64,000 nt of DNA from Candidatus Woesearchaeota archaeon (GTDB taxonomy: Archaea; Nanobdellota; Nanobdellia; Woesearchaeales; 21-14-0-10-32-9): positions 1 through 64,000 of the forward strand of contig JAIPET010000005.1 in NCBI GenBank assembly GCA_021736975.1, in the 5' to 3' direction. Within the stretch, counting starts at the first letter, position 1; each line of letters opens with the position of its first letter. This document shows, one piece after another, positions 22,358 through 23,643 of the stretch. The notes below the pieces were generated by a model. That model saw nothing but the letters and a program-made list of their open reading frames with translations. It made no database searches and was not told where the DNA came from. Made by a program: the position numbers and the translations under genes.

Positions 22358-22382
22358 TATTTCCAGACGAAATAGAGGGTAT
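22358..22382 (+). promoter_or_regulatory. ORB-like element (TTCCAGACGAAATAGAGGGTA)
   Basis: Matches shared motif; immediately upstream of cdc6. Confidence 0.6.
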
Positions 22383-22442
22383 ATAAATATTCTTCTTTTG
22401 GAACTTATATTTTGGAATAGTATATAACAAGAAATATACTAC

Positions 22443-22467
22443 TCTCCCCTTTATTTCGTATAGAACT
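22443..22467 (-). promoter_or_regulatory. ORB-like element (TTCTATACGAAATAAAGGGGA)
   Basis: Matches shared motif; inverted relative to 22358-22382. Confidence 0.62.
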
Positions 22468-22504
22468 TATTTAGAACAAAAAAAGTTTGATTTATGAATG
22501 TTTT

Positions 22505-22528
22505 ATATATATATATATATATATATAT
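22505..22528. repeat. (AT)n dinucleotide tract, possible DNA unwinding element
   Basis: tatatatatatatatatatatatat next to ORB-like box. Confidence 0.7.
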
Positions 22529-23273
22529 CAGATTACATCATATTATATTATTAAATAAAAATAAAACATATTAAATAAATATAATTCATAAATAAATATA
22601 AAACATATTAAATAAAAACAAGTAATAAACTAATAAATAAAAATAAGTAACATATTAAATAAATATTCTTCATAAATAAATATAAATCATATAAACATTG
22701 AATATTAATCAAATAATTTATTAAATACCAAATATCAAATAAAATACAAACAAAAAATAATAATAAATAAATTATAACTAATTTACTTCTTAATTGATGT
22801 TTAAATTTGTTTTTAGAATTTATTTATTTTAAAATAAATATTATTTTTGAATTTGATCTCTTTTTTATTTTCTTTTTCTTTATTCTTTATGTTCATTCTT
22901 TTTTTTTATTATTTATATTTATTTTTTTCTTGTTTCTTTTTCTTCATTCTTTATGTTCTTTCTTTATTATTATTATTACTTATAGAATAATATAATATAT
23001 AATAATACAATAATTAACTTCCATATAGAAAAGAAAGATGAGTTTTTAAGAGTTATTGACAAGAAATAAAAAAAAAGAAAATTATTCATATAATAATAAA
23101 TAAAATAAAATTAGAATAATAATATAATAATGTCTATTTTTTTCTTATAGAAATATATTAAATTTATTTTTTAGTATTTAATAATTATTAGATTTTTATG
23201 TGTTTTTTATGTGTTTTGTTAAAATAATTATATATTATAGATTAATATATTTGTTTATTAATTTAATAAGACT

Positions 23274-23454
23274 TAATTAAGATGATATATTTGGTTATTT
23301 AGTATTAATATGTAATTAAGATGATATATTTAGTTATTTAGTATTAATATGTAATTAAGATGATATATTTGGTTATTTAGTATTAATATGTAATTAAGAT
23401 GATATATTTAGTTATTTAGTAATTAATATGTAATTAAGATGATATATTTAGTTA
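23274..23454. repeat. 39-bp tandem repeat, about 4.6 copies
   Basis: taattaagatgatatatttRgttatttagtattaatatg at 23274, 23313, 23352, 23391 (40 bp), 23431 (partial). Confidence 0.95.
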
Positions 23455-23618
23455 AAAATCTAATATAACAAATATTAAATGTTTATAATATTTATAATAA
23501 TTATATATGCTTAGGTTGACTATTAAGATTATTTGATTGTTTATTAAAATATTAAATTTAACTATAAAATAATATGATCTTTAAAATAAATAAATGTAAC
23601 TTATTTTTATCAAAAAGT

Positions 23619-23643
23619 ATTCTATAGGAAATGTAGGGGTGAC
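23619..23643 (+). promoter_or_regulatory. ORB-like element (TTCTATAGGAAATGTAGGGGT)
   Basis: Matches shared motif at the distal end of the AT-rich region. Confidence 0.65.

Follow-up and report, generated by a model that had tools for sequence, protein, structure and literature searches.

The window (that is, the whole stretch of 64,000 nucleotides analysed here) lies on a 70.9-kb contig (C46) of a 1.31-Mb genome that is 98% complete in 47 contigs. On its minus strand, an initiator gene of the orc1/cdc6 type is followed by the genes for both subunits of DNA polymerase D and, further along, by those for TBP and the MCM helicase:

21098..22336, minus strand, orc1/cdc6 initiator gene (Pfam Cdc6_C and Cdc6_lid)
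19467..21101, minus strand, DNA polymerase D small subunit DP1
15983..19450, minus strand, DNA polymerase D large subunit DP2
13195..13788, minus strand, TBP gene, first of TBP–MCM (identified from sequence; orthologues in 56 of 60 relatives, at 51–97% identity)
9685..13098, minus strand, MCM helicase gene with an intein (Pfam MCM, Intein_splicing and LAGLIDADG_3)

The initiator, a protein of 412 amino acids, is of the Orc1-1 type. Its best PDB match is Orc1-1 of S. solfataricus (2qby_A, 3e-106), it also matches Orc1 of A. pernix (2v1u_A, 7e-99), and its winged-helix segments TQRRVSDII and GRFGRTRE align to both structures without gaps; TQRRVSDII and GR-[FY]-G are conserved, and the winged-helix arginines R349, R350, R373 and R376 are invariant in 13 homologues. 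Arginines of this domain read the origin recognition box (ORB) in initiators and are absent from the non-initiator Orc1-2 (PMC9738581). The genome has no other close copy of the gene; a pair of Cdc6-like ATPases (C4 and C29), 27% identical to it, were considered as second initiators and set aside as too distant, C29 having an ATPase and a lid domain without the Cdc6_C winged helix. The protein is 80–82% identical to a record of an uncultured Candidatus Woesearchaeota (L250, a contig of relative G010), after which further Cdc6 matches are mostly to Woesearchaeota, and the comparisons below draw on about 100 relatives from the host's order (Woesearchaeales-like DPANN).

Origin recognition boxes

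A search with the ORB consensus returned five matches within three mismatches in the 64-kb window, against 0.09 expected from dinucleotide shuffles, with a G-string that matches the archaeal consensus. The motif proved specific to the window rather than scattered over many unrelated sites: the rest of the 1.31-Mb genome holds no comparable ORB, its two three-mismatch matches being at the level of the reversed-pattern control. A position weight matrix (PWM) trained on boxes upstream of cdc6 was used to scan 49 cdc6 loci of the order, and the scan was repeated with a second PWM built from boxes outside the host family. This external-family PWM recovers exactly the same five boxes, the next best site in the window scoring 15.3, and gives one weak match in 297 kb of other sequence from the same genome. 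Three of the five had been named as ORB-like in an earlier note on this DNA and are real (22361–22381, plus strand, two mismatches; 22445–22465, minus strand, one mismatch; 23620–23640, plus strand, no mismatches); the remaining two (13934–13954, minus strand, one mismatch; 14020–14040, minus strand, no mismatches) had been missed.

Inverted boxes around an AT-rich spacer

Two of the boxes flank a long spacer directly upstream of cdc6:

22445..22465, minus strand, ORB, proximal box of the putative origin pair (TTCTATACGAAATAAAGGGGA; one mismatch, external PWM score 24.5; G-string towards cdc6)
23620..23640, plus strand, ORB, distal box of the putative origin pair (TTCTATAGGAAATGTAGGGGT; no mismatches, score 27.7; G-string away from cdc6)
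22466..23619, no strand, AT-rich spacer, candidate duplex unwinding element (1154 bp, 88% A+T)
22504..22528, plus strand, (TA)12.5 tract
23274..23454, plus strand, 39-bp tandem repeat, 4.6 copies at 97% (only in this genome among the family members compared)

Inverted ORBs thus enclose an AT-rich candidate unwinding element beside an initiator gene of the Orc1-1 type, as in an oriC of the Orc1/Cdc6 type. The arrangement recurs across the order. Among 42 cdc6 loci with at least 250 bp upstream, the external-family PWM finds the proximal box on the gene strand in 40 and the distal box on the opposite strand in 36 (counts that are partly circular, as some training boxes come from the same upstream regions), the G-strings pointing away from a spacer whose median length is 285 bp across loci and which measures 1154 bp here. 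Spacer A+T exceeds that of the gene start in all 34 relatives compared and that of the outer flank in 32 of 33, and the same layout is seen in named Woesearchaeota, Pacearchaeota and Aenigmarchaeota records.

No DNA on the 70.9-kb contig is less stable than the region upstream of cdc6, which is also non-coding (longest stop-to-stop frame, 72 codons), as had been stated earlier for about 1.3 kb; the accompanying description as almost pure A/T is a mild overstatement for the 88% between the inverted boxes. The AT tract and the 39-bp repeats reported at the same time are confirmed at 22504–22528 and 23274–23454, respectively. The repeats were considered as functional iterons and rejected: they have no counterpart in three family members (G001, G004 and G007) and are therefore probably local.

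A palindrome at the centre of the spacer

The spacer holds one further conserved element:

23019..23030, no strand, central palindrome TTCCATATAGAA (order consensus TTTTCTATATAGAAAA), conserved in mid-spacer

The segment 23019–23040 had previously been taken for a possible degenerate extra box. With a PWM score of −8.3 it is ruled out as a fourth ORB, and what it contains is TTCCATATAGAA, a separate conserved palindrome. Of 80 unique spacers, 57 contain a match to TTCYATATRGAA with at most two mismatches, whose relative position in the spacer has a median of 0.51, and counting k-mers without any prior motif also recovers the palindrome (TTCAATATAGAA in 15 spacers, 0.05 expected); the wider consensus palindrome is ATTATTTTCTATATAGAAAATAAT. 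When the spacer is aligned with those of G001, G004 and G007, the position-matched conserved blocks are the palindrome segment and a cdc6-proximal block that comprises the third box (see below), a TATA element and the proximal box.

The exact 12-mer is found at six sites in the genome, all of them intergenic. A copy at 45318–45335 (45321; ATTTTCTATATGGAAAAT) falls where third-position skew switches on the contig (42–47 kb), with the 5S rRNA gene (45388–45503, minus strand) about 55 bp away; the SRP RNA gene lies about 50 bp from another (L374 1501; G000:C41:68672), and a third (L372 1501; G000:C6:5629) is 1.3 kb from the end of the 23S rRNA. That every copy is intergenic hints that the palindrome may serve a nucleoid protein or a boundary next to strongly expressed RNA genes. 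A further copy (L373 1501-2064; G000:C15:14846) precedes the gene of a small protein with an SFNNVKKDI-like motif. In the Woesearchaeota-like loci L282 (4834), L292 (3006) and L030 (1501), an ORB stands before proteins with SFTNIKKDF or SFSNIKKDM, and the gene for this type of protein may be a further conserved target.

Boxes on the cdc6 and TBP–MCM promoters

The third box of the cdc6 side lies on the core promoter of the gene:

22361..22381, plus strand, third ORB variant, ends in GGGTA and abuts the cdc6 TATA; probable autoregulatory operator (TTCCAGACGAAATAGAGGGTA)
22380..22389, minus strand, TATA element of the cdc6 promoter (TATTTATATA on the minus strand; conserved in position in relatives as ...TTTATA directly followed by the box)

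A box near the start codon, on the strand opposite the gene, is present in 27 of 42 relatives (the PWM behind these counts was trained partly on those upstream regions), and in 25 of the 27 a TATA-like element lies directly upstream of it; the box sits between TATA and the expected start site, and ends in GGTAT, GGTTT or GGGTA rather than GGGGT. With its position fixed relative to the core promoter across diverged genomes, 22361(+) is better read as an operator on that promoter than as an origin box, and this position points to a probable autoregulatory role.

The two boxes that had been overlooked lie together upstream of TBP–MCM:

13934..13954, minus strand, ORB, downstream box of the TBP–MCM pair (CTCCATAGGAAATGATGGGGG; one mismatch, external PWM score 28.0)
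14020..14040, minus strand, ORB, upstream box of the TBP–MCM pair (TTCCATAGGAAATAATGGGGT; no mismatches, score 32.6; 86 bp from its partner)
13873..13882, minus strand, TATA box of the TBP–MCM promoter (AAAAGCATTTATAAA, BRE/TATA; invariant in six family members)

MCM directly follows TBP in most relatives. When the 400 bp before the first gene were scanned at a score of at least 14, boxes were found in 41 of 53 loci, 65 of the 66 boxes stood in gene sense, and the spacing was 81–87 bp in 21 of 24, counts that are free of the circularity on the cdc6 side. A Markov control gave zero matches in 126 kb, and the next 600 bp further upstream hold a single box in 29.8 kb. About 50 bp separate the end of the downstream box from the BRE/TATA AAAAGCATTTATAAA in the host family, and in G016, where TBP is located elsewhere, the boxes remain in front of MCM. 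The loci cover some 40 families, which are related and hence not independent trials; because the geometry of the boxes is kept over this range, it is probably under selection. Here too the boxes are fixed relative to the core promoter across diverged genomes, and their position suggests that Orc1 also regulates TBP–MCM. Between the two ORBs (13955–14019), the family conserves an element resembling GTATACTGGTATACT, present here as GTATACTGATATACT, which is perhaps the site of another regulator.

In Pacearchaeota-like relatives, a further ORB precedes a gene for a small winged-helix protein that lies about 2 kb from cdc6 or farther away. Strong minus-strand boxes lie upstream of this gene (VFSTIYQLEEE...LSESSIRDYVGKLI) in Pacearchaeota-like and related loci, as follows:

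L315 8077, L317 7490, L321 3520, L322 7920, L328 8003 and L329 7868, ORBs of the winged-helix gene

A search of the present genome for this ORB-preceded protein gave only a doubtful match (E 0.016).

Strand composition

Because gene orientation dominates raw GC skew, the raw skew of the window was replaced by third-position G/C skew per gene strand. For the single-contig genome G020, a circular fit is best with the origin-type switch at 781 kb (range 762–782 kb) and the opposite (terminus) switch at 150–170 kb, with ORBs at 763.6–764.1 and 781.5 kb. The best switch in G029 (414 kb; 5–95%, 406–450 kb) is about 20 kb from the ORBs at 394.6–395.0 kb, and on the contig studied here the third-position switch at 44.4 kb (42.4–47.4 kb) is displaced from the boxes by 21 kb, towards the right. 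G023 and G051 show no switch within about 100 kb of cdc6 in either direction, and G004 shows none in the 64 kb available on one side of the gene. G051, in which cdc6 and TBP are 40 kb apart, was tried as a means of telling which ORB cluster is the origin and was discarded, having weak skew and no origin-type switch; sampled contigs of the present genome (some of the 47) show mostly one polarity or weak skew. The outcome is mixed: skew favours an origin in the neighbourhood in three genomes, is negative in three, and does not place it at the boxes here. For the earlier expectation that skew would mark the locus, the switch at the locus in G020 thus speaks in favour, and the offset of about 21 kb in the present genome, together with the three relatives without a switch, speaks against.

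A long run of plus-strand genes at 45574–63282, which includes nucleotide-sugar and short-chain dehydrogenase/epimerase genes, begins at the skew switch. The run probably serves the synthesis of a surface polysaccharide; if it was acquired from elsewhere, as may be the case, the skew test would be less clear-cut.

Proposed model and alternatives

We consider it rather probable that the locus combines an Orc1-dependent chromosomal origin with initiator-box operators at cdc6 and TBP–MCM in a Woesearchaeota-like DPANN archaeon, origin function being likely. The earlier proposal of a chromosomal origin is well supported by the specificity of the boxes, by the inverted ORBs that flank an AT-rich spacer next to an Orc1-1-type cdc6 across the order, and by skew that switches at the locus or close to it in some genomes; it has to be amended in that 22361(+) is better assigned to an operator, the supposed extra box is a palindrome, a second ORB pair stands before TBP–MCM and the skew switch of the contig itself is 21 kb away. 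In the model that we envision, Orc1 (that is, the Cdc6 encoded next door) would bind the opposed ORBs 22445(-) and 23620(+), the AT-rich spacer would open and MCM would be loaded there, with the mid-spacer palindrome probably bound by another factor. On the third box, Orc1 would block either the recruitment of RNA polymerase or access to the start site; because this box occupies the core promoter of cdc6, repression by Orc1 of the operon that encodes it (cdc6, then DP1 and DP2) is probable. At the ORB pair upstream of the TBP–MCM promoter, it would regulate (activate or repress) the supply of TBP and helicase. Archaeal activators usually act upstream of the promoter, where the TBP–MCM boxes sit. 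A more ambitious joint reading, to which we give slightly less than an even chance, is that one Orc1 serves both as initiator and as regulator of a small conserved regulon (its own operon and the TBP–MCM operon, plus the small winged-helix gene in Pacearchaeota-like relatives), and that the central palindrome of the origin is bound by a factor in a UBP-like role.

All of the ORBs could alternatively be transcriptional operators of a replication-gene regulon, the active origin lying elsewhere (for example, at the skew switch at 44–47 kb). The switch at 44.4 kb on the contig itself, the palindrome copy at 45321 beside the 5S rRNA, the missing switch at cdc6 in G023, G051 and G004, and the ORBs that relatives carry before other genes would all agree with such a scheme; however, there is no ORB near 45 kb, the sugar-biosynthesis cluster from 45.5 kb on may be imported, skew in G020 switches at the locus itself, and a divergent ORB pair around a spacer that is always richer in A+T than the gene has the anatomy of an origin rather than of an operator, so that we judge this explanation improbable. 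Still further from our favoured model would be an origin that is a relic, with replication starting by recombination. Thermococcus kodakarensis is described as replicating without cdc6 and its presumed origin (PMC5663688), and some relatives show little or no skew at the locus; yet box geometry and central palindrome are strongly conserved over the order, which argues for continued selection, and we give the relic very little credence.

A different question is whether the TBP–MCM pair is an Orc1-titration site (like datA of E. coli or oriC2D of Haloarcula) or an auxiliary origin rather than an operator. In Haloarcula hispanica, an ORB-rich region negatively controls oriC2, likely by titration (PMC3936714), and the high scores of the TBP–MCM boxes (28.0 and 32.6) would suit such a site. 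Titration, however, needs none of the constancy of orientation, spacing and distance to the BRE/TATA that is seen over some 40 families, and for an auxiliary origin opposed boxes around an AT-rich tract would be expected; we therefore regard this option as unlikely, although it is the most serious of the alternatives, and retain the operator reading of the pair.

Comparison with known systems

Orc1-type origins with inverted ORBs and an AT-rich duplex unwinding element (DUE) are well known, as is the clustering of cdc6 with DNA polymerase D (PMC2643942). Closest in layout is oriC1 of Saccharolobus/Sulfolobus (ORB3–DUE–ucm–ORB2 beside orc1-1; PMC12141716), which shares the inverted ORBs, the AT-rich DUE and the Orc1-1-type gene. 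According to the same source, ucm is an 11-bp element in the DUE between ORB3 and ORB2 that is needed for origin activity and bound by UBP, and ubp is a relatively recent acquisition in Desulfurococcales and Sulfolobales (PMC12141716). The palindrome resembles ucm, as described there, in being a short conserved non-ORB motif within the DUE (here in 57 of 80 spacers) with additional genomic sites (here six exact ones), a likeness of position (PMC12141716). It differs in being a near-perfect palindrome with only six exact genomic sites, the spacer measures 1154 bp as against about 130 bp for the whole ORB3–DUE–ORB2 region in that description (PMC12141716), and here the third ORB abuts a TATA box.

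The grouping of cdc6 and both DNA polymerase D subunits at the origin recalls the oriC island of Pyrococcus abyssi (cdc6, DP1, DP2 and RFC; PMC2643942), and aIF2-beta is close to replication genes here, as it is to MCM in several archaea (PMC2643942); in contrast to P. abyssi, TBP and MCM complete the cluster with an ORB pair of their own, and that survey makes no mention of TBP. A second, separate ORB cluster near cdc6 is also known from oriC2/oriC2D of Haloarcula hispanica (PMC3936714), where the titration region lies downstream of cdc6, whereas here two boxes stand at fixed places upstream of the TATA of other genes. Orc1-2, the DNA-damage regulator of Sulfolobus, is likewise an Orc1-family protein that acts on promoters, its own included (PMC9738581), but it does not act as an initiator, and its site is the DDRE hexamer ANTTTC, whereas here the sites are full ORBs and the sole Orc1-1-type protein found is the putative initiator. 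Bacterial DnaA, too, has boxes in the promoter of its own gene next to the origin (the dnaA case is mentioned in PMC3936714); protein and box are unrelated, and the likeness is functional, with no homology claimed.

A search of the open-access literature, which leaves subscription journals largely outside and is weak evidence to that extent, found no paper that deals with origin recognition boxes in DPANN, nor any that describes ORBs ahead of TBP–MCM. DPANN are a very large archaeal group. If initiator boxes do act on the cdc6 and TBP–MCM promoters, an archaeal initiator would link origin firing with the provision of helicase and of the general transcription factor TBP, a type of control that can be compared with that of bacterial DnaA. 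The authors of the ucm study express considerable interest in whether more divergent archaea have analogous origin proteins (PMC12141716), and the central palindrome offers a concrete bait for such proteins.

Other features of the window

The MCM intein (protein residues ~337–790) contains a LAGLIDADG domain and, inside it, a small helix-turn-helix match. Between the ORB pair of TBP–MCM and the IF2-beta gene, an open reading frame of 118 amino acids (14124–14480) has two CxxC pairs and no Pfam match. At the left end of the window, a giant open frame of repeats (3–8183; more than 2,700 amino acids) has a GC content of about 0.40, against 0.27 around it, and ends in SSDERLKENI, which we take to recall the self-cleaving chaperone of phage tail fibres; its composition suggests that the frame was imported.
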